From the NCBI GenBank assembly GCA_021324975.1, contig JAJPIA010000091.1, positions 1 to 50,201 of the forward strand: a stretch of 50,201 bases of DNA, given 5' to 3'. Position numbers and translations under genes: made by a program. The stretch's first letter is position 1. Every line of letters starts with the position of its first letter. The stretch comes from Bacillota bacterium. GTDB taxonomy: Bacteria > Sysuimicrobiota > Sysuimicrobiia > Sysuimicrobiales > Segetimicrobiaceae. A model generated the notes under the pieces. The model was not told the origin of the DNA. It did no database searches and saw only the letters and a list, made by a program, of their open reading frames with translations. Shown piece by piece: positions 3,341-37,000 of this stretch.

Positions 3341-3347
3341 GGACTCC

Positions 3348-4259
3348 GTGGCATCCACCGCGTGCGTGATCGGCCTGGGATCGATGGGATACGGCGCCGC
3401 CGTGTCCCTACTCCGCGCCGGCATCGAGGTGCGGGGCGTGGACGTCCGCGCGGAGGCGCGGGAACGGTTCAGGGGCGCGGGCGGCGCGACCGTGCCATCC
3501 CCGGCGGAGGGCGCTGTGGGTACCGAGATCGTGTTCACGTTCGTCGTCAACGCCGACCAGACGGAGGCGGTCCTGTTCGGCCCGGCGGGTGCAGCGGCGA
3601 AGTTGTCACCGGGATCCGTGGTGGCCGCGTGCGCCACTGTCGCGCCGGCGTACGCGGAGGAACTTGGCCGCCGGCTCGCCGCGATGGGGTTGCTCATGCT
3701 GGACGCCCCGGTCTCCGGCGGCGTCGCGCGGGCGGCGAAAGGGGACCTAACCGTGATGGCGTCCGGGGCACCGCAGGCATTCGCCAAAGCGGAGCGGTTC
3801 CTGCGGGCCATCGCGGGCCGCGTCTACCGGCTCGGCGACGCGCCGGGCATCGGGTCGCGGGTCAAAATGATCAACCAATTGCTCGCCGGCGTGCACATCG
3901 CCGCCGCGGCGGAGGCGATGGCGCTCGGGATCGGGACGGGCGCCGACCCCCGCCAACTCTACGAGGTCATCGTCAACAGCGCGGGATCGTCGTGGATGTT
4001 TCAGGATCGTGTGCCGCACATGCTCGCCGGCGACTACTCGCCCCGCTCCGCCGTCAACATCTTCGTCAAGGATCTCGGCATCGTCGTTGAGGCCGGGCGC
4101 GCCGCCGGGCTTCAGCTGCCGATGGCGGAGGCCGCGTACCGCCTGTTCGCGGCCGCCCGGGATCAGGGCCTCGGTGGCGAGGACGACGCGGCGGTCATCA
4201 AGGTCTATGCTGCGGAGGGCCGCGTCGCGCTGCCCGCCCCGGACAGGCCGGTCGATTGA
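3348..4259 (+). CDS. ltnD: L-threonate dehydrogenase-like beta-hydroxyacid dehydrogenase
   Basis: A 303-residue NAD(P)-dependent dehydrogenase of the 3-hydroxyisobutyrate family. With OtnI, OtnK and OtnC it would oxidise L-threonate (or an isomer) to 2-oxo-tetronate and so open the pathway. The Rossmann motif GLGSMG is at 9-14, the substrate motif DAPVSGG at 119-125 and the catalytic lysine at K173 in VKMINQL. I chose the GTG at 3348 because GTAGGGA lies just upstream and the Rossmann strand then begins normally; a TTG at 3327 is possible. It starts 7 bases after otnC, so the three rightward genes form one operon. Tartronate semialdehyde reductase is the main alternative. Confidence 0.8.
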   Translation: MASTACVIGLGSMGYGAAVSLLRAGIEVRGVDVRAEARERFRGAGGATVPSPAEGAVGTEIVFTFVVNADQTEAVLFGPAGAAAKLSPGSVVAACATVAPAYAEELGRRLAAMGLLMLDAPVSGGVARAAKGDLTVMASGAPQAFAKAERFLRAIAGRVYRLGDAPGIGSRVKMINQLLAGVHIAAAAEAMALGIGTGADPRQLYEVIVNSAGSSWMFQDRVPHMLAGDYSPRSAVNIFVKDLGIVVEAGRAAGLQLPMAEAAYRLFAAARDQGLGGEDDAAVIKVYAAEGRVALPAPDRPVD

Positions 4260-4287
4260 TCCGCCGGTGTTGCCGCCGGCCGCGTCC

Positions 4288-5460
4288 CTACGATCCGCCC
4301 CGGTATACCCGCGGGACCGAGTCGCCGACGGCGACGGACAGGCGGGTCGGCTGGTCGAATCCCCGAGCGATCAGCACGTCCGTCACCGTGATCTCGGCGT
4401 CTCCCTGTCGGCCGATGAAGACGACCTCGTCGCCCGCCTGCGCGTCGGGCACGTCCGAGATATCGAGCCGGAGATGTTCCAAGTTTGCGCCGCCCGCGAC
4501 GGGCACGCGCCGTCCCCGCACCAGCGCGGCTCCGCAGTGCAGGCTCTCGATGCCGTCCGAGTAGCCAATCGGGGCGATGCCGATACGCGCCCCAGGTCGA
4601 GCGGAAAACGGCACGGACTCGCCGCGATCGGCCCGCAGGCTGCGGCAGTGAATCAGCCGGCTCCGCAGGCCCGCGAACGCCTCCCGGATCCGCATCCCGT
4701 GCCGTTCGAATTCCGTGTCCGACCGCAGATTGCCGTAGATGACCCTGCCGACGTCGATGCCGTTGAAGCCCGCATTCCCGGCCCGCAGCACGACCGGCGT
4801 GCTGGCTGCGACGGCCACCGGGATCTCCACCCGCGCGTTGCGCGCCGCGCGCACCGCGGCGCCGAACCGGGCTAATTGCACGCGGATGGCGGCCCCGGCC
4901 ACATCGGCGGCGCGCGGCACAAACATGTGCGTGTAGACCCCTGCCAGCCGCAGCTTGGGCGATTCGTGGATCCGCCGGAGCAGCGCCGGCGCGCCGGCGT
5001 CGGTGATCCCAAACCGCTCGCCGCCCACGTCGATCTCGACAAACACCTTGACTTGCTTGGCCGCGAACCGCGCGTAGGCGTCGGCGACCTCCGGGTCCGT
5101 CACGGTGGCGAAGAACCCGTGTTCCTCCACCATTCCCACGAACTCGGCGTCCACGAGCCCGCCGCCGTAGATGAGCACCGGCAGCGACACGCCTCCGCCG
5201 CCGAGCACCAGCGCGTCGGCCGGATCGGCGACCGCGACCATGTCGACGCCGGCGTCCTGAAGCGTCCGACACACGGGCAGCAGGCCGAAGCCGTAGCCGT
5301 TGGCTTTCACCGCGGCGAGCAGGCGAACGTCCGCTCCGACGACCCGCCTGATCTCTCCCACGTTGTGGGCGATCGCGCCGAGGTCGACCTCGAAAACGTT
5401 CGGCCGCGCCATGCCGGGCATCCGCCAGCACACGCGAGGGTCCGCATGAGGCGAGGGCAT
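4288..5460 (-). CDS. Alanine-racemase-fold PLP enzyme lacking the catalytic tyrosine
   Basis: A 390-residue fold-type III PLP enzyme. K52 in AVKANGYG is the PLP lysine, and R149 (EIDVGGERFG) and H178 (YTHMF) match further racemase positions. In true alanine racemases the second catalytic base is the tyrosine of a SYG motif before IGxxPIGYADG; here the aligned residues are PFS, with F285 in its place. The usual GRxxMD segment near the C terminus is also replaced (GGANLEHL). Ordinary two-base racemisation is therefore doubtful. It is the last gene of the ABC transporter operon: its ATG follows the ATPase stop by two bases behind a strong GGGAGGAGG. A changed racemase, lyase or amino-acid-binding role is possible. 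Confidence 0.75.
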   Translation of the reverse strand: MPSPHADPRVCWRMPGMARPNVFEVDLGAIAHNVGEIRRVVGADVRLLAAVKANGYGFGLLPVCRTLQDAGVDMVAVADPADALVLGGGGVSLPVLIYGGGLVDAEFVGMVEEHGFFATVTDPEVADAYARFAAKQVKVFVEIDVGGERFGITDAGAPALLRRIHESPKLRLAGVYTHMFVPRAADVAGAAIRVQLARFGAAVRAARNARVEIPVAVAASTPVVLRAGNAGFNGIDVGRVIYGNLRSDTEFERHGMRIREAFAGLRSRLIHCRSLRADRGESVPFSARPGARIGIAPIGYSDGIESLHCGAALVRGRRVPVAGGANLEHLRLDISDVPDAQAGDEVVFIGRQGDAEITVTDVLIARGFDQPTRLSVAVGDSVPRVYRGGS

Positions 5461-5462
5461 CG

Positions 5463-7511
5463 TCAGCCTCCTCCCGAGAGCGGGAAATGACAGGCCACGG
5501 CCCGCCCGGCCTCAACCTCATGAAGCTCCGGAGGCGTCTGTGCGCAGACGGCTTGGGCGAACCGACACCGCGTCCGAAACCGGCAACCCGAGGGCGGCGC
5601 GCTCGGAGACGGCGGGTCGCCGCTCAGGACGATGCGTTCTCGGGGCGCCGCTCCCAGGACAGCGGGCACGGAAGACAGCAGCGCGGCAGTATACGGGTGC
5701 AGCGGCCGCGAGCACACCACTTCGCTCGGGCCGTGCTCGACGACTTGTCCCAAGAACATGATCGCGATGTGCGTACTCAGGTGGCGCACGACCCGCAGGT
5801 CGTGACTGATGAAGATCAACGCGAGATGAAATTCGCGCTGCATGTCCTTGAACAGGTTGATAATCTGTGCCTGCACCGACACGTCCAATGCGGATATGGG
5901 TTCGTCGGCCACGATCAATTCCGGGTTGAGCGCGATGGCACGAGCGATCCCCACACGCTGCCGCTGCCCGCCGGACAACTCGTGGGGCAGGTGGGCAGCG
6001 TAGCGGGCGCCGAGACCGACGAAGTCCAGGACCTCGCGCACGCGCCGCTTGCGCTCATCATGAGCCACGCCAAATGCGATCAGCGGCTCGCCGACGCTAT
6101 CCCCAATGGGACTCCGCGGGTTCAGCGACGCGTACGGGTCTTGGAATATCGGCTGCATGTACCTGCGCAGCTGCCGCAGGTCCTCTCCGCCGGTCCGCGT
6201 GATGTCCCGGCCCATGAAGCGTATCCGGCCGCTGTCGACGTCGAGCAGGCGCAGCGCGCAGCGGCCCAACGTGGTCTTACCGCACCCCGACTCGCCGGCG
6301 ATGCCCAGAACTTGCCCCCGCCGGACGGTGAGCGACACGTCGTCCAGCGCGTGCACGTGCGCCGGCGCGGTGAAGGGCAGCCGATTCGGCATGAGAAAAT
6401 GTCGGGTGACGTGTTCGAGACTGAGGATCGCGTCCGGCGCCGGAGACTCAGGCTCGACCGTCTCAGAAACGTCCGGAGCGAGCACCCGGACCGTGCTCGT
6501 GACCGTCTCCTTCGGCGCCGCCGGCAGCGACCCGTCTTTCGCAAACCAGCAGGAGACCAATGAGTGTCCGACCGGCTCCAGCGGCGGCTCCGCCGATCGA
6601 CAAATCTCGGCCGCATAGGGGCATCGCGGGTGGAACGGGCATCCGGACGGAAGGGCGCCAGCGAGAGGCGGCTCGCCCGGAATGGCCGCGAGCCTCCGTG
6701 TCTTCGGCACATCCGGGGACGGCATCGACTGCAGCAACGCCCGGGTATAGGGGTGTCGCGGCTGAGCCAGCAGGTCGCGCGTCGGGCCGAACTCGACGAA
6801 ACGTCCCGCGTACATGACCGCCACGGTCTTGGAGATTTCGCTTACCACCGCCAGGTCGTGGCTGATGAGGATCACCGCGACACCTAGCTCGCGATTCAGC
6901 CGGCCCAACAAATCCAGAATTTGAGCCTGGACGGTCGCATCGAGGGCCGTGGTCGGCTCGTCCGCGATCACCAGCGGCGGCGCGGCGATGAGTGCCGTGG
7001 CGATGACCGCGCGCTGCCGCATCCCGCCGGAGAACTCGTGCGGATATCGCATCATTGCGCGGCCGGGATCGGGAATACCCAGGCGATGCAGTTCCTGTTG
7101 GGCCGTTAGTGTGGCGGCCCGTCTCCCCGCGAGCCGGTGCAGGACGAGCGGCTCCCGCACCTGCGGACCGACCCGCATGATGGGGTCGAGCGACGTGAGG
7201 GAATCCTGAAACACCATGCTGATCTCTTTACCGCGGACCTCCGACAGGCGCTGTCTCGGCACACCGAGCAGATCCTCGCCCTTGAAGCACACGGTGCCCC
7301 CCGTCACCTTGGCGCCGGAGGGAAGCAGCCTCGGGATGGCCGACACAGTCATGGTCTTGCCGGACCCGGACTCCCCCACGAGGCCCAACACTTCGCCGCT
7401 CCCAAGGCGAAACGACACGCCGCGGACAACCTCGATAGCCCCCGCACCGCCACCCACGGCGACGTGAAGGTCGTTGACTACCAGGAGATCCCCTGTGCGT
7501 CCGCCGTTCAC
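5463..7511 (-). CDS. Fused double ATPase of a peptide/oligosaccharide-type ABC importer
   Basis: This 682-residue protein joins DppD-like and DppF-like ATPases in one chain, as GsiA and YejF do. The first half has Walker A GESGSGKT (46-53), signature SGGMRQR (161-167), Walker B VIADEP (181-186) and the cysteine-containing GCPFHPRCPY segment (290-299) typical of oligopeptide ATPases. The second half has Walker A GESGCGKT (406-413), signature SGGQRQR (513-519) and Walker B IVADEP (533-538). The frame is open far upstream, but that part overlaps the permease gene; the GTG at 7511 after AGGAG fits family alignment. It powers the two permeases encoded just upstream and might also serve the ATPase-less cluster at 20-25 kb. 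Confidence 0.9.
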   Translation of the reverse strand: MNGGRTGDLLVVNDLHVAVGGGAGAIEVVRGVSFRLGSGEVLGLVGESGSGKTMTVSAIPRLLPSGAKVTGGTVCFKGEDLLGVPRQRLSEVRGKEISMVFQDSLTSLDPIMRVGPQVREPLVLHRLAGRRAATLTAQQELHRLGIPDPGRAMMRYPHEFSGGMRQRAVIATALIAAPPLVIADEPTTALDATVQAQILDLLGRLNRELGVAVILISHDLAVVSEISKTVAVMYAGRFVEFGPTRDLLAQPRHPYTRALLQSMPSPDVPKTRRLAAIPGEPPLAGALPSGCPFHPRCPYAAEICRSAEPPLEPVGHSLVSCWFAKDGSLPAAPKETVTSTVRVLAPDVSETVEPESPAPDAILSLEHVTRHFLMPNRLPFTAPAHVHALDDVSLTVRRGQVLGIAGESGCGKTTLGRCALRLLDVDSGRIRFMGRDITRTGGEDLRQLRRYMQPIFQDPYASLNPRSPIGDSVGEPLIAFGVAHDERKRRVREVLDFVGLGARYAAHLPHELSGGQRQRVGIARAIALNPELIVADEPISALDVSVQAQIINLFKDMQREFHLALIFISHDLRVVRHLSTHIAIMFLGQVVEHGPSEVVCSRPLHPYTAALLSSVPAVLGAAPRERIVLSGDPPSPSAPPSGCRFRTRCRFAQAVCAQTPPELHEVEAGRAVACHFPLSGGG

Positions 7512-7525
7512 AGCGCTCTCATCTC

Positions 7526-8395
7526 CTATCGTCTGCCGCCGAGCCACGGATCCAGCGCGTCGCGGATCGAGTCTCCCAGAAGGTTGAACGCAAACACGAG
7601 CGACAGGATGGCCAGGCCGGGAAAGGTCGCGACCCACCACTGATCCATGACGTCGACTCCACTCGACACCATGGCCCCCCACTCGGGTTGCGGTGGCTTC
7701 GCCCCCAACCCGAGAAAGCTCAGGGTGGCAAAGTACAAGATGGCCCGCCCGACGTCGATGGCCGCCATCACTAACAGCGCGGGGAGAACGTTCGGCATGA
7801 TGACCAGGTACAGCGTGTGCAGCGGTAACCGCCCGGAGGCCCGCGATGCCACCACGTACTCCTTCTCCCGCAGATCCAGCACCAGCCCCCGGCACACGCG
7901 AACGTATTGGGGCCACCAGACCGCGGCCAGCGCCACGACGCCGTGACTCAAGCTGGCCCCCAGCGCTGCGGCCACGGCCATGGCCAAGACGAGGACGGGG
8001 AACGCCAGGACCATGTCCGTGACCCGCATCACTACTTCATCGACGGCTCCGCCGAGGTACCCCGCGGCCGCGCCGAGGGCGGTTCCAACCGCCAGGCCGA
8101 TGCACACCACGACCACCGCCGCCGGCAGCGAAGCCTGGCCCCCGTACAGGACCCGGCGCAAGACGTCACGTCCCAGTTGGTCGGTTCCGAACGGGTGCGC
8201 GGCGCTCGGCGCCTGCAGCAGGACGTCGATGTCCTCCGCGATCGGCCCGCCCCGCGTGAAGAGGCCCGCGCCGGCAATCGCCACGAGCCACGCCACAATG
8301 ATGGCCAGGGCGATGGTCATCTGCGGGTCTTGTCGTGCGAACATCAGCCCTCTGCGTGCGGCGGCGGCGGGGTGCGCAGGCAGACTGGACATCAC
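7526..8395 (-). CDS. ABC importer permease, DppC type
   Basis: A 289-residue inner-membrane permease with the binding-protein-dependent transport fold. It has one N-terminal helix (about 27-50), the periplasmic HPFGTDQLGRDVLRRVLYG segment typical of DppC/OppC, and five further helices. The coupling loop is near VVASRASGRLPLHTLYLVIM and the C terminus ends in DPWLGG. GTG and ATG are adjacent at the start (8395 and 8392), and the GTG overlaps the stop of the DppB-type gene, so the permeases are translationally coupled. It belongs to the five-gene leftward operon of binding protein, DppB, DppC, fused ATPase and racemase-like enzyme. The sugar-acid genes around it suggest a carbohydrate or sugar-acid conjugate rather than a peptide as substrate; this is inference. 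Confidence 0.88.
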   Translation of the reverse strand: MMSSLPAHPAAAARRGLMFARQDPQMTIALAIIVAWLVAIAGAGLFTRGGPIAEDIDVLLQAPSAAHPFGTDQLGRDVLRRVLYGGQASLPAAVVVVCIGLAVGTALGAAAGYLGGAVDEVVMRVTDMVLAFPVLVLAMAVAAALGASLSHGVVALAAVWWPQYVRVCRGLVLDLREKEYVVASRASGRLPLHTLYLVIMPNVLPALLVMAAIDVGRAILYFATLSFLGLGAKPPQPEWGAMVSSGVDVMDQWWVATFPGLAILSLVFAFNLLGDSIRDALDPWLGGRR

Positions 8396-9423
8396 CGGCG
8401 CCCGGATATCATGGCGGCGCGTATCCGCGGATCCAGCGCCGCGTAGACAAGGTCAACGCAAAGGTTGACGATGGTGTAGATGACGCCGAAGACGAGCGTC
8501 ACGCCCATGATCGCGGGAAAATCGGCATAGATGGCGGCCTCGTACGCGTAATGGCCGATCCCAGGCCAGCCAAAGATGGTCTCGATGAGGATGACGCCGG
8601 TCAGCAAGTCGCCGTAAGCCAGTCCAACGACGGTCACGACCGGAATCAAGGCGTTCGGCGCCGCATGCCCAAGGACGGTGTGCAGCTCGGTTGCGCCCTT
8701 GCTGCGCACCATCCGCAGGAAGCCCTGAGGCAAGACGGACAACATGCTCGTGCGGGTCATGCGGGTGAGCGTACCTGTGCTCCAGGTCGCCATAATCAGC
8801 GCCGGAAGAGCCAAATGAGATACGGCATCCCAAAACGTCTTCATGTTGCCCGCGATCAGGCTGTCGACGGTATACATGCCGGTTACGTTTGGAGGCGGCG
8901 CGTCGGTCGGGTTCAACCGCCCGGGGGCCGGCGCGATTCCCAGGTGCAGGTAAAATACGTCCAGGGCCGCCAGGGCCAGCCAGAAGATCGGCATGGCCAC
9001 ACCTACCAGGGTCACAAGGCGCACGATCAGATCCGGCGTGGTACCCCGTGTCACCGCGGCAACAATCCCTAGCGGCACAGACAGGATCGTGCTCAAAAGG
9101 ATGGTCGCCGTCGCCAGCTCGATCGTGGCAGGCATGTAGGATCGCAGATCCTGCGTGACCGGACGATGGGTGTAAATCGAGTCCGAGAGATCGCCGTGCA
9201 GCAGGTTCTTCACGTACGTCAGGTACTGCATCGGCAGCGGCTGATCCAGCCCCCAGTGATGACGATAGGCGGCCACGATGGCGGGATGGTCCGCGGCCTG
9301 CTGGCCCAGAGCGGCGACGACCGGGTCGGTGGGGATCGCACGGCTCACGGCGAAGGCGATGACGGTCATGCCGAGGAGAATCGGCACGAGAAGGAACAAC
9401 CGGCGGGCCACATATCCGATCAT
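8392..9423 (-). CDS. ABC importer permease, DppB type
   Basis: A 343-residue permease with the classic N-terminal helix of DppB/OppB proteins (GYVARRLFLLVPILLGMTVI) followed by a periplasmic loop ending in HGDLSDSIYTHRPV, then five more helices. The EAA-like coupling loop reads LRMVRSKGATELHTVLGHAAPNAL (about 220-243), and the C terminus (VNLCVDLVYAALDPRIR) is typical. The loop between helices is a little longer than in E. coli DppB because of a proline-rich insertion around 160-185. It pairs with the DppC-type protein encoded next and is separated from the binding-protein gene by 188 bases that contain a strong hairpin. Confidence 0.88.
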   Translation of the reverse strand: MIGYVARRLFLLVPILLGMTVIAFAVSRAIPTDPVVAALGQQAADHPAIVAAYRHHWGLDQPLPMQYLTYVKNLLHGDLSDSIYTHRPVTQDLRSYMPATIELATATILLSTILSVPLGIVAAVTRGTTPDLIVRLVTLVGVAMPIFWLALAALDVFYLHLGIAPAPGRLNPTDAPPPNVTGMYTVDSLIAGNMKTFWDAVSHLALPALIMATWSTGTLTRMTRTSMLSVLPQGFLRMVRSKGATELHTVLGHAAPNALIPVVTVVGLAYGDLLTGVILIETIFGWPGIGHYAYEAAIYADFPAIMGVTLVFGVIYTIVNLCVDLVYAALDPRIRAAMISGRR

Positions 9424-31326: not shown

Positions 31327-31414
31327 GGAGGGATGGCAGAGCGGCCGATTGCGGCGGTCTTGAAAACCGCTAGGGGGCAACCCCTCGGGAGTTCGAATCT
31401 CCCTCCCTCCGCCA
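31327..31414 (+). tRNA. tRNA-Ser (UGA anticodon)
   Basis: A complete 88-base class II tRNA with a long variable arm (TAGGGGGCAACCCCTC). The acceptor is GGAGGGA with TCCCTCC, the anticodon loop is TCTTGAAAA with anticodon TGA, the T arm is GGGAGTTCGAATCTCCC, and the gene ends in GCCA with CCA encoded. The 263 bases that follow contain a CCGCCGC/GCGGCGG hairpin near 31632-31648 but no gene. Confidence 0.97.
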
Positions 31415-32127: not shown

Positions 32128-32292
32128 ATGGCAAGCCGGCGTCACTATGTCGAAGTTCGGGTACTCTACGGAAAGGATGTCGCCGCGGAACTGAATGCCT
32201 GGGCGGCCAAAGGCTACAAGGTCGTCGTCGCCACCGGGGACCGGATTATCATGGAGACGAAGGTGCGGAACCGAGAGGACGAGGACGAGTAG
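32128..32292 (+). CDS. Small conserved-looking protein, possibly DUF4177-like
   Basis: A 54-residue protein with ATG preceded by AGGGGG at a normal distance. The core HYVEVRVLYGKDVAAELNAW followed by AAKGYKVVVATGDRIIME has the strand-helix-strand shape of DUF4177-type proteins (LN...GYKVV), but the match is weak. The tail is highly charged (RNREDEDE). Its last 44 bases overlap the 3' end of the convergent sensor gene. I would not assign a function. Confidence 0.55.
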   Translation: MASRRHYVEVRVLYGKDVAAELNAWAAKGYKVVVATGDRIIMETKVRNREDEDE

Positions 32293-35200
32293 ACGGCTCG
32301 CCCACGGGCCGCATGGTCTCAATCGCATCCGCCAGCGTCCCAAAGGTCTTGAACGCCTGCCCCACCCCCGCGATGTGAACGAGCCGCCGCAGCGCCGCCG
32401 ATGACGGCACGACGAGCAGTAGCTCGCGCCGGTTGGTCGCGAGCCGCCGGCCAAACCGGAGCAGCGCGCCGATCGCGTAACTGTCCAGATAGGCGGCCTC
32501 GGTAAGCGCGACGATCACGCCGCGCGAGTCCGCGCGTGCCGCCTGGTCGAGCGCCGCTTCGAACGCCGCGGCGTTTCGCAAATCCATGTCGCCGCCAATC
32601 GTCACCACCGGGATTTCCCCCGCCCGATAAATGCCGAACGGAGTTCCGCGCGCCAACCGCCCCGCGCCGTCCTTGCCCGGCGACCCGCCGGTGGGTCGGG
32701 GGTCGATCGCCCCGGCCACGCCGTCCCGCGGGGCTCCGCCCGGCTCCGTCGACAGCTCATCCGGGATGCTCGCGGAATCGTGCGGCAGCTTCATGGCCAA
32801 GCGGACCGTCGTTCCCGCCGACGTTGACTGCACCTCAACGGCATCCGCCAACGCCTCCATCACCCTCAAGCCGTGGCCGCCGCCGGTGAATGGCCGGTCT
32901 GTGCGCCAGGTTCCATCGTCCGCGACTTCCACCCGCAGCGTCCGCCTCTCATCAACGTAGGCGCGCACGCGCAGCTGCCCGGCCGTTGTGCCGTACGCGT
33001 GCTCGATCACGTTGTTGACGGCCTCGCCGACCGCAACCATGATCGACGTCAACCGCTCGCGGTCGAGGCCGGTGTCGGCGGCAAGCCGCCGCAGCGCCTG
33101 ACGCACCACGACGGCGCTGCGGGGTTCCGACGGGAGCGCGATCTCGAACCGGTCGAACGGCCGCGCCGCGACGGCCACCGTCAGCACGGCGATATCGTCG
33201 CCGATGTGACCATGGGTCAGCACCCGCTTGACGATGGCCTCGGCGTGATCCGCCTCCGGCTCCGTCAGCACTTCGCGGGCGGCCTCGATCACCGCCGCCT
33301 CGCCGACGATGGGGTCGAGCCGTGTCTCGGTGAGCCCGTCTGTGTAGAGCACGATCAGGCTCCCTCGGGGAAGGGTGACGCTATGCGATGGCGGCTGATC
33401 GATGCCGAGATAGCCGAGCGGCAGGCCCCCGCAGGGGAGCCGCGCGGGCTCCTCATCGGGGACGACGAGGATCGGGGCCGGGCACCCCGCCGTGGCGTAG
33501 ATCAACTCGGACGTGTTGGGGTCCATCACGCCAAACAGCGCCGTCGCCATCGCCGCGTCGCCGTCTGTGAGGGCCAGCAGATCGCTCGCGCGCCGCAGCA
33601 CGCCGGACGGATCCGCGTGCGAGAGCGCGGCGGCCCGGATGGACTGCCGAAGCTGCCCCATGGTCACGGCCGCACGGAGGCCACGCCCCGCGACGTCGCC
33701 GATGGACAGGGCGATGCGGCCGTCCGGCAACCAAAACATATCGTACCAATCGCCGCCGATGTCGGACTCCCATGCGCCGCCGGATCGGTACGCGCTGCGC
33801 AGGGCCAACCCGGGGCACTGCGGCAGCGCCCCCGGCAACAGCGCGCGCTGAAGGGTTTCCGCCACCCGGCGTTCGCGCGCGTACGGTCGCGCGCGCTCGA
33901 TCGCCTGCCCGCACTGACGGCCCACGGTCACCATAAACTCAAGCTCATCCGTGGGAGGCCGGCGCGCTTCCGTGAATCGCACATATAGAACGCCGATCAC
34001 GCGGCCGTACGATATCAACGGCACTTCGGCCAGCGCGCCCGCCGTTGCCGAGTCCATAAACGGCGTGGGGTCCGGAGCACGACCGTCTTGAGTGCCCCCG
34101 GCCGCGTGCCACACCGCGCCGACGCTCCCCGCCGGACCCGCGCCGGTCGTGGGGCGGCGAAGCGGAAACCGCCGCCAGCGCTGCGTGATCTCTGAGGGAT
34201 AGCCGACCGCGCGGACCAGTTCTAGCGTCGATTGGTCCGCACTCAACAAGCAGAGGCTCGCCGCGGAACCGCCGAAGGTCTCCTGCGCGTGCGCAACGAT
34301 GACATCGGCAATCTGCTCCGGGGTTACGGCCTCGGACAACGCGGCCGTAATTGCCTGCATGCGGGTCACCCGATCGGCGGCCCGTTCCGCTGCCACGCGC
34401 TGGAGTTGCTCCGAACGATGAAGGCGGGCATTGTCGAGCGCCAGCGCCGCCCGGCGCCCCACTTCCTCCGCGAACGCCAGATCAGCTTCCGTGTGGCGGC
34501 GCGCGGACTCTGCGGAGAAGAGGGTGATGGCTCCCAAACACCGTTCGTGCGCCACGAGCGGCAGCACCATCGCGGACCGCGCCCCCAGACTGCGCACGAT
34601 CCGCCGCAGCGCCGGGTTCGGCACGGCATCCGCGAGCAACGTGGCCGAGATATCGGCGTAGAGCTCGGCCTTGCGTGTCCGGACGGCGTGGGCGGCGCCG
34701 TACCGCGATCGGGGATCCGGCGGGTACCGGCGCTGCACTTCGCGTGCGAGCGCGGCACGGTCCACATCTTTATGCATGGTGATCGCCGTCCGCAGCGTTC
34801 CGGAGTCATCGGTCAGATCGATGATGCACCAATCCGCAAGCGCTGGCACCAGCACGCGAGCCAGGCCGTCCAGGTTGGCGTCCACATCGAGTCCGGACAG
34901 CGCGTCGCCGATTTGGACCAACAACTGCCGCTGCTGCTCCACCCGCTTACGCTCGGTGATGTCCCGCGCGACCGACGACGACCCAACCACGGCTCCCCAT
35001 CGACTCCGGATTGGGGAGATGCTCAGGGACACGTCGACGCGGCTGCCGTCCCTTTTGACGCACTCGGTCTCGTAGCGCTCGAATCGCTCTCCCCGCCGCA
35101 GCCGCGCGAGCAGATCCGCGACCGCGCCGGCGCGGTCGTGCGGTGCGAGCATAAAGACCGGCCGGCCCAGCGCCTCCGCGGCACCATAGCCAAACAGCCG

Positions 35201-35665
35201 CTCAGCGCCGGGGTTCCAGGTGAGGATCGTGCCGTCGGGGGCTTTGCTAAAGATTGCGTCGTCCGAGGACTCGACGATGGACGCCAGTTGGCGCGCCGCA
35301 AGGTCCGCCCGGCGGAGGCGCACAGCCCCCTCCGCGGTAACCACGGCCACCGCCGTAAACAGGATGATGCCCGGCCATTCCGTGGGGAGCGGAAGGGACA
35401 GCGGGTCGTGCGGCGACACCACCGCAAACCATGCCCCGGCCAAACTCACAATCGCTGCGACCCAGCCGGGGAGGCGGCCCCAGAGATACCCGACCGCGGC
35501 GACCACGGGCACGTACACATAGAGAAAGCCGGCCGGCGCAAATATGATGTGCAACACCGAAACGAGCAAGGCGGTCCCGCCGGCAACAAGCAGCGCGCCA
35601 GCACCCATCGCGACACGGGAGGGCTCGCGAAACGGCACGGCAAACCTCGACGCGGAATGCGTCAC
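32249..35665 (-). CDS. PAS/GAF/SpoIIE phosphatase/anti-sigma kinase/STAS multidomain sensor
   Basis: A 1138-residue membrane-anchored partner-switching protein. Three or four N-terminal helices (about 20-115) lead into a PAS domain (125-245), two GAF domains (about 255-415 and 435-595) and a PP2C/SpoIIE phosphatase (600-830) with D639, D657, D776 and D823/D824 as metal residues. An HATPase anti-sigma kinase-like domain (840-960) has N-box EAVNNVIEH, ADDGTW and GGGHGL. After a proline-rich linker comes a STAS domain (1015-1120) with S1062 in LDSYAIGALL, where the RsbV/SpoIIAA phosphoserine lies. Phosphatase, kinase and antagonist of a stress-sigma switch are thus in one chain. GTG start 35665 is uncertain; M20 is an alternative. 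No sigma factor gene is nearby. Confidence 0.88.
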   Translation of the reverse strand: MTHSASRFAVPFREPSRVAMGAGALLVAGGTALLVSVLHIIFAPAGFLYVYVPVVAAVGYLWGRLPGWVAAIVSLAGAWFAVVSPHDPLSLPLPTEWPGIILFTAVAVVTAEGAVRLRRADLAARQLASIVESSDDAIFSKAPDGTILTWNPGAERLFGYGAAEALGRPVFMLAPHDRAGAVADLLARLRRGERFERYETECVKRDGSRVDVSLSISPIRSRWGAVVGSSSVARDITERKRVEQQRQLLVQIGDALSGLDVDANLDGLARVLVPALADWCIIDLTDDSGTLRTAITMHKDVDRAALAREVQRRYPPDPRSRYGAAHAVRTRKAELYADISATLLADAVPNPALRRIVRSLGARSAMVLPLVAHERCLGAITLFSAESARRHTEADLAFAEEVGRRAALALDNARLHRSEQLQRVAAERAADRVTRMQAITAALSEAVTPEQIADVIVAHAQETFGGSAASLCLLSADQSTLELVRAVGYPSEITQRWRRFPLRRPTTGAGPAGSVGAVWHAAGGTQDGRAPDPTPFMDSATAGALAEVPLISYGRVIGVLYVRFTEARRPPTDELEFMVTVGRQCGQAIERARPYARERRVAETLQRALLPGALPQCPGLALRSAYRSGGAWESDIGGDWYDMFWLPDGRIALSIGDVAGRGLRAAVTMGQLRQSIRAAALSHADPSGVLRRASDLLALTDGDAAMATALFGVMDPNTSELIYATAGCPAPILVVPDEEPARLPCGGLPLGYLGIDQPPSHSVTLPRGSLIVLYTDGLTETRLDPIVGEAAVIEAAREVLTEPEADHAEAIVKRVLTHGHIGDDIAVLTVAVAARPFDRFEIALPSEPRSAVVVRQALRRLAADTGLDRERLTSIMVAVGEAVNNVIEHAYGTTAGQLRVRAYVDERRTLRVEVADDGTWRTDRPFTGGGHGLRVMEALADAVEVQSTSAGTTVRLAMKLPHDSASIPDELSTEPGGAPRDGVAGAIDPRPTGGSPGKDGAGRLARGTPFGIYRAGEIPVVTIGGDMDLRNAAAFEAALDQAARADSRGVIVALTEAAYLDSYAIGALLRFGRRLATNRRELLLVVPSSAALRRLVHIAGVGQAFKTFGTLADAIETMRPVGEPSTRPRPLGSAPSSP

Positions 35666-35873: not shown

Positions 35874-36707
35874 CTAAAGCGAAGCCGCTTGGCCTCGGAC
35901 GGCCTGCTCATAACGTTCCAGCGACTGCACGACCGCGTCATGCGCCCCGGCGGCGATGACCCGTCCTGAAAAGCCGCCGTAGACCCGGTCGAAGCGCAGG
36001 GGCTCGACGATTCCCGCGATACGGCGGAACGTCGCGGCGTCCACAGGAATCAAGTTAGGGTAACTATACATGACGCTCACGTGGCGCCGATCAGGCACCA
36101 CCTGCAGGGTGTCCCCCGTCAACAACGCGCCCCGCCCGCCGGCGCCCCCCGGCCAGTGCAGGACCGCGGAGCCGCGAAAATGTCCACCACAGCGGAGCAG
36201 GGTGAGCCCCCCGGGCAGCACGTGGCTCGCGCCTTGCCAGGGCGTGATCGCGTCGTCCGGACGCATGATCCACATGCGATCGTCCGCATGGACGTACACG
36301 GGAGCGTCCCCGAACGCGCGGCTCCACTCGACCATGGACGAGTAGAAGTGCGGGTGCGAGATGGCGATCGCCGCCAGCGACCCTCGCCGCCGGATCTCGT
36401 TCACCGTCTCCGGGTCGATGAGGCTGACGCAATCCCACAACACGTTGCCGGCGGCGGTGGTGATGAGCAGAGCGCGCTGGCCGATCGCAAAGCTTGGTTC
36501 GGTGCGGATGCCGAGGAGCCCAGGCTCTTCCTCGGTGAAGGTGTTGCGGTGGTCGCGCCGCAGATGGGCCAGGGTCGTCCACGACTGGCCCTGCCAGTTG
36601 ACCCACTGGCGCTCGTCGGCACAGATCCCGCACTGCTCCGGTGGTTGCGCCGACTCCTTGAACTGGGTGCCGCAGGTCGTGCAAATCCAGTGAGGCAAGC
36701 CCGCCAC
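35874..36707 (-). CDS. Metallo-beta-lactamase-fold hydrolase with N-terminal zinc ribbon
   Basis: A 277-residue protein. The N terminus has a rubredoxin-like zinc ribbon, CTTCGTQF followed by CGIC. The MBL-fold part keeps SHPHFYSSMVEW in place of HxHxDH, then GGHFRGSAVLHWPG and LLTGDTL. It lacks a clear final histidine (GGFSGR), so metal binding is partly changed. Members are poorly characterised. The frame is open to 36995, but GTG 36707 begins just before the zinc ribbon and follows a G-rich stretch; TTG 36698 is also possible. A strong promoter at 37029-37001 would give it a leader of nearly 290 bases containing an early terminator. Confidence 0.75.
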   Translation of the reverse strand: MAGLPHWICTTCGTQFKESAQPPEQCGICADERQWVNWQGQSWTTLAHLRRDHRNTFTEEEPGLLGIRTEPSFAIGQRALLITTAAGNVLWDCVSLIDPETVNEIRRRGSLAAIAISHPHFYSSMVEWSRAFGDAPVYVHADDRMWIMRPDDAITPWQGASHVLPGGLTLLRCGGHFRGSAVLHWPGGAGGRGALLTGDTLQVVPDRRHVSVMYSYPNLIPVDAATFRRIAGIVEPLRFDRVYGGFSGRVIAAGAHDAVVQSLERYEQAVRGQAASL

Positions 36708-36929
36708 CCCCAATCCCACCGTTGGTGTTCGCGGGAGCCCCGTCGCAAGTCCTCTGGACAAGTAGCGTGCTGAAAGTCTAATCGAAAGGAGGCGTACGAA
36801 CCGGCATAAAGTCGCACAAGGAGGAATGGTTGTGCTTCGGCCACCGGTGTGAACGCGGAGCCAGCAAGAGAGAGGAAAGAATTCGGCAGCGGACGTGAAA
36901 ATAAGAGATGTGGGGTGGATACGAGCAGC

Positions 36930-36961
36930 AAAACGCCGCGTCACAACAACGTTCCGCGGCG
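36930..36961 (-). terminator. Intrinsic terminator or attenuator in the leader
   Basis: CGCCGCG (36961-36955) pairs with CGCGGCG (36940-36934), followed at once by TTTT on the minus strand. It lies only about 35-65 bases after the predicted transcription start. It would release a transcript of roughly 65 bases unless bypassed. Confidence 0.55.
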
Positions 36962-37000
36962 CAACTTCGTTTGAATCTTGCGATTGAGCTAACAAAATGA

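Follow-up and report, generated by a model that had tools for sequence, protein, structure and literature searches.

We propose that one gene of the bacterial contig analysed here (GenBank JAJPIA010000091.1, from a Bacillota bacterium placed by GTDB in the Sysuimicrobiota; its whole 50,201 nucleotides are called the window) encodes one arm of a partner switch together with its sensor. On balance we think it probable that the gene product joins the kinase, the phosphatase and the antagonist of such a switch to a membrane sensor, and that the anti-sigma arm is a separate RsbW which is probably dead as a kinase. An ortholog in a congener shows 88% identity to the protein, and orthologs and domain scores together ruled out a chance or ghost reading frame at this position. 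The Pfam domain order is DUF4118-PAS-GAF-GAF-PP2C-HATPase-STAS with a hydrophobic N-terminus in the hydropathy profile, which confirms an earlier note on this DNA that had read PAS, two GAF, PP2C, anti-sigma kinase-like and STAS domains in a single membrane chain, without naming DUF4118. The gene and its parts are:

32249..35665, minus strand: sensor-phosphatase-kinase-antagonist gene, 1138 amino acids (open reading frame with GTG start; orthologs)
35288..35602, minus strand: DUF4118-type membrane region, residues 22-126 (Pfam 3.6e-10; hydropathy peaks)
34958..35290, minus strand: PAS domain, residues 126-236 (Pfam 2.1e-18)
34436..34879, minus strand: GAF domain 1, residues 263-410 (Pfam 1.5e-20)
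33896..34327, minus strand: GAF domain 2, residues 447-590 (Pfam GAF_2 6.5e-18)
33173..33727, minus strand: PP2C/SpoIIE phosphatase domain, residues 647-831 (Pfam 4.6e-41; motif table; fold match to SiaA-PP2C, Z 25.4)
32795..33136, minus strand: HATPase_c_2 domain (RsbW-like serine kinase), residues 844-957 (Pfam 1.9e-21; aligned to Bacillus subtilis RsbW)
32624..32782, minus strand: unconserved Pro/Ala/Gly-rich linker, residues ~962-1014 (per-residue model confidence, pLDDT, below 50 at 965-1003)
32324..32623, minus strand: STAS antagonist domain, residues 1015-1114 (Pfam 1.4e-12; RsfB 1e-8)
32480..32482, minus strand: codon of S1062, predicted phosphoserine (alignment to antagonists)

The motifs of both enzymes and of their presumed substrate can be read along this chain. 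The metal-binding aspartates of the PP2C domain (D639, D657, D776, D823 and D824) are all present, the N-box of the HATPase domain is intact with E881 and N885, and its G1 Asp-x-Gly (D916/D917) and G2 Gly-x-Gly (G928 region) motifs are found as well. By position count on the alignment with B. subtilis RsbW, N885 corresponds to the N-box Asn and E881 to Glu49, which according to the accessible part of the structure report touches Ser56 of RsbV in the RsbV-RsbW structure (PMC7340262). In the STAS domain Y1059-L-D-S1062 aligns with RsfB, TM1442 and SpoIIAA-type antagonists and S1062, directly after D1061, occupies the RsbV/SpoIIAA phosphoserine position, as the earlier note had also seen. The equivalents of the PP2C aspartates, of E881/N885 and of D-S1062 are kept in 16/16 fused rows of the phylum. 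The best solved relative is 3ke6, the PP2C-kinase part of Rv1364c from Mycobacterium tuberculosis (E 1.9e-29), which is also the best fold match of a predicted structure for residues 588-1138 (Z 28.2, root-mean-square deviation (rmsd) 11.5, 334 aligned), a model graded weak with a mean pLDDT of 80.4 and a predicted template-modelling score (pTM) of 0.68; for the HATPase part of the model the match is B. subtilis RsbW in 6m37 (6m37_C), with Z 19.0 and rmsd 1.7 for 114 aligned residues. Within the AGH-P motif of the PP2C domain Cys728 (window 33482-33484) replaces the common His, which is found in nearly all relatives, and the closest ortholog (congener G026) has Ser at this position.

The proposed partner of this chain would be encoded elsewhere in the genome. 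As the earlier note had stated, no sigma gene is close: all sigma matches of the genome are off the contig of the window. Two genes of the genome lie above the SigBFG cut-off, on contigs C10 and C55. The sigma gene of C10 stands at the contig end, and C10 and C94 probably meet there in one rsbW-sigB pair, because 33 codons (99 bases) of the RsbW gene at the start of C94 recur at this end with 100% identity; near the second SigBFG gene on C55 no RsbW was detected. Each genome of the family carries one or two rsbW-sigB pairs, with the RsbW gene directly upstream of the SigBFG gene in 12/12 genomes, two of them inferred over broken contig ends. The N-box Asn is lost in 19/19 RsbWs with sigB at the same locus, which come from four families of the phylum and have Ala, Ser, Asp or Val instead, and also in 3/3 further cases that are partial or split and of which one belongs to a fifth family; in the sigma-adjacent RsbWs the motifs G1 and HAY are likewise degraded. 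The same Asn is kept in 29/29 PP2C-HATPase proteins and in 5/5 RsbW-like proteins whose surroundings lack a sigma gene. Loss of the N-box Asn should impair Mg-ATP binding in this kinase fold, and because of this loss the RsbW beside SigB is probably an anti-sigma factor only, with the kinases encoded elsewhere. A STAS gene adjoins rsbW in only 1/11 rsbW-sigB loci, and therefore the antagonists would come from elsewhere too. In a search of the open-access literature a phylum-wide kinase-dead RsbW was not found described.

Because every family genome has a separate RsbW with degenerate motifs next to SigB, the whole partner-switch module that the earlier note had seen in this one chain is probably wrong. 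The same dedicated RsbW weighs against a self-contained switch, in which the fused HATPase would itself be the anti-sigma factor and its own dephosphorylated STAS would displace sigma intramolecularly, as the earlier note had proposed in speaking of intramolecular switching and as suggested for Rv1364c. The RsbW equivalog model PRK04069 points the same way, as it favours the operon RsbW (88 bits in the own genome, 92 bits in G027) over the fused domain (51 bits, below the cut-off of 145), and so does the lid region of the fused HATPase, which is short in the alignment to B. subtilis RsbW. The second SigBFG gene without a detected RsbW would suit such a switch, which we nevertheless consider unlikely.

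To place the fusion among its relatives we sampled 43 genomes of the phylum, of which 16 gave a match at a threshold of E 1e-60 (37 match rows, at most five per genome). Thirty of these rows were examined, and the seven left out include two which also reach the STAS end (G023:C22 and G025:C80); one scan of relatives kept the best 80 rows. Proteins with PP2C and HATPase were counted, 29 in the phylum and 70 outside, after L046 had been dropped as it is without HATPase. Within the phylum STAS is part of the chain in 16, encoded directly downstream in 8 and upstream in 4, and for 1 none was seen; outside the phylum the figures are 2 fused, 26 downstream, 1 with STAS on both sides and 41 with none seen. 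The usual state is thus PP2C-HATPase with a separate STAS gene just downstream, and the phosphosite serine is kept in 39/39 STAS genes linked to unfused PP2C-HATPase genes. All 16 fused proteins belong to one family (f1) and are spread over 7 genomes, including a second copy in the own genome (MASE1-GAF-PP2C-HATPase-STAS, contig C68). Their heads vary, with DUF4118-PAS-GAF-GAF, PAS-PAS-GAF-GAF, PAS-GAF, MASE1-GAF and GAF-GAF among the 12/16 scanned with Pfam. The triple fusion also occurs in at least 8/396 sampled Actinomycetota genomes (G584, G296, G349, G388, G292, G278, G053 and G240), a lower bound with at most six candidates scored per genome, and among the matches listed from 148 Eremiobacterota genomes none reaches the STAS part. 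The PP2C-HATPase-STAS design is therefore recurrent but uncommon, and the point of the earlier note that kinase, phosphatase and antagonist are normally separate holds as far as frequency goes; as to novelty the point does not stand, since Rv1364c is a precedent that is already characterised. An unprecedented architecture is ruled out by Rv1364c, which has the same order, and a common one by the survey counts. The open-access literature search did not find the architecture described with DUF4118 or MASE1 heads.

A tree built from 99 PP2C-HATPase regions places the 16 proteins of the family in one group of 19 rows (support 98/91) along with three unfused ones (L041, L045 and L051), of which L041 is cut by a contig end. 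The fused proteins from Mycobacterium (L170, a relative of Rv1364c by its 3ke6 match at 3e-182) and Solirubrobacter (L159) are placed far from this group, and the approximately unbiased (AU) test rejected a single clade for all 18 fused rows (p 2.3e-74, to be taken with caution for long branches). Judged from the tree, the fusion appears to have arisen more than once, with an origin in the family independent from that of Rv1364c. Because they have been fused repeatedly, kinase, phosphatase and STAS substrate seem to belong together, and independent fusions are evidence of which STAS pairs with which kinase, where this pairing usually has to be guessed.

A connection between these proteins and the rsbW-sigB pairs is suggested by five genomes (G033, G012, G016, G018 and G027) with PP2C-HATPase genes near sigma loci; a rough estimate with assumed copy numbers puts the chance of linkage in 5/16 genomes at 2e-8 to 3e-5. 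In G012, G016 and G018 these genes face rsbW-sigB, and in G033 an unfused protein of the same clade is divergent from a STAS-RsbW-SigB-STAS run. The loci in G033 and G027 are:

L189 (G033:C76) 3345-5964: run STAS / STAS-RsbW-SigB-STAS, divergent from the PP2C-HATPase sensor
L230 (G027:C99) 3863-8980: second SigB paralog, followed downstream by a HATPase with intact motifs; a PP2C-HATPase gene on the opposite strand

In the G033 run Asn-Ser takes the place of Asp-Ser in the STAS that precedes RsbW. Furthermore, a degenerate RsbW is present in 15/16 genomes with the PP2C-HATPase cassette vs 6/27 others, uncorrected for kinship of the genomes. Both the linkage and the co-occurrence argue against a non-sigma output, in which STAS would regulate another target such as a cyclase or an enzyme and the link to SigB would be indirect; no cyclase gene was found beside the window gene among the ten open reading frames scanned. 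There are known STAS switches with outputs other than sigma, as the available parts of the reports on SiaABCD (PMC9239204) and on SypA/SypE tell, and the window itself is without a sigma gene, but we regard such an output as quite improbable.

The mechanism that we infer for the kinase-phosphatase-antagonist arm would start with signals at the DUF4118/PAS/GAF region, which shift the balance between PP2C and HATPase on S1062. The HATPase would phosphorylate and the PP2C dephosphorylate this serine on a STAS domain tethered in the same chain or dimer by the flexible linker, a role proposed because the linker is 28-76 residues long across the fused set, rich in Pro, Ala and Gly and unconserved. 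Phospho-STAS would be inert, and dephospho-STAS, still held at the membrane, would capture the separate RsbW whose gene adjoins that of a SigB/F-type sigma factor, and the sigma factor would thereby be freed. As this RsbW is without kinase motifs, the phosphorylation would have to come from PP2C-HATPase proteins. The up to five matches per genome vs one or two rsbW-sigB pairs suggest convergence on a shared output, and the insulated output that had been considered in the earlier note is accordingly not favoured. More tentatively, RsbW may be a pseudokinase throughout the phylum, with the kinase role moved into sensors whose single chain holds a phosphatase too and, in this family, an antagonist as well. 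Several membrane sensors, their heads being swappable (DUF4118-PAS-GAF, MASE1-GAF, GAF-GAF), might then converge on one cytosolic RsbW-SigB pair and pull RsbW to the membrane, so that partner switching would take a spatial form. From the membrane tether one would expect the anti-sigma factor to move to the membrane on activation. Kinase activity and sigma inhibition, which RsbW usually unites, would have come apart in this system, where the substrate travels with kinase and phosphatase, and this can be tested directly.

Several observations weigh against the proposed arm with its separate RsbW. The triple fusion is found at 0/5 sigma-linked loci, where the linked relatives are all unfused, and in G027 a HATPase with an intact Asn lies ~430 nt downstream of the second SigB gene. 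Six genomes (G020, G021, G029, G030, G031 and G034) have a degenerate RsbW and SigB but gave no match to the cassette at E 1e-60; either their kinase is a different one or the cassette escapes the cut-off. The query of the RsbW search was itself degenerate and thus biased toward similar RsbWs. The phosphatase activity of the window protein is uncertain because of Cys728 in place of the AGH-P His, and free STAS genes elsewhere in the own genome could be the real antagonists. For Rv1364c, binding of SigF itself has been reported (PMC7693655, as far as the accessible text goes), and the fused HATPase might hence bind sigma directly; moreover, the reports on its kinase conflict, as far as titles and accessible parts show, with one title naming a lost kinase activity and others auto-phosphorylation. 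That the fused STAS is only a covalent inhibitor of the kinase domain or a docking arm, and a free STAS in trans the true substrate, would agree with the several free STAS genes, with a STAS gene that immediately precedes the G027 ortholog and with Cys728, but is the least probable of the alternatives, as a docking arm would not need S1062 and the preceding Asp, both kept in 16/16 fused copies.

Upstream of the gene for the sensor protein the window contains:

35874..36995, minus strand: MBL-like gene (named from reading of the sequence; in Pfam only a sub-threshold rubredoxin-like match)

This gene has a zinc-ribbon-like N-terminal stretch and adjoins the cassette in both congeners, and it is a possible operon partner. 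In G027 a STAS gene lies between the MBL-like gene and the ortholog. Just downstream of the cassette gene a tRNA-Ser(TGA) is located at 31327-31414 on the plus strand, next to a DUF2630 gene.

Among known systems Rv1364c is alike in that a single chain runs from a PAS sensor through PP2C and RsbW-like kinase to STAS, and its auto-phosphorylation and dephosphorylation have been published (PMC7693655, PMC9138534, PMC10950880, each seen in part). It differs in having one PAS domain and, in the accessible parts of these reports, no membrane or GAF part is described for it; those of its mycobacterial relatives that were examined show Gly-Ser at the phosphosite, whereas the family of the window protein has Asp-Ser. 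The phosphatases OsaC of Streptomyces coelicolor and RsbZ of Clostridioides difficile are comparable GAF/PAS-PP2C sensor phosphatases, but a fused STAS is not described for them in the available part of the source (PMC12143880). The RsbU/RsbP-RsbV-RsbW-SigB system of B. subtilis employs the same domain families and phosphoserine logic, yet with separate parts and with an RsbW that is both kinase and anti-sigma factor (PMC7693655, accessible text). In Mycobacterium smegmatis, according to the portions available of PMC7693655 and PMC10950880, kinase and anti-sigma roles lie on different RsbW-type proteins (RsfB-RsbW2-RsfR and RsbW1-SigF) and the antagonist depends on a PP2C phosphatase for its reset: RsbW1 inhibits SigF but has no kinase activity, and RsbW2 phosphorylates RsfB but does not bind SigF (PMC7693655). 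In that species kinase, antagonist and phosphatase each have a protein of their own and a two-component system controls the phosphatase, whereas the window protein carries all three in one sensor chain.

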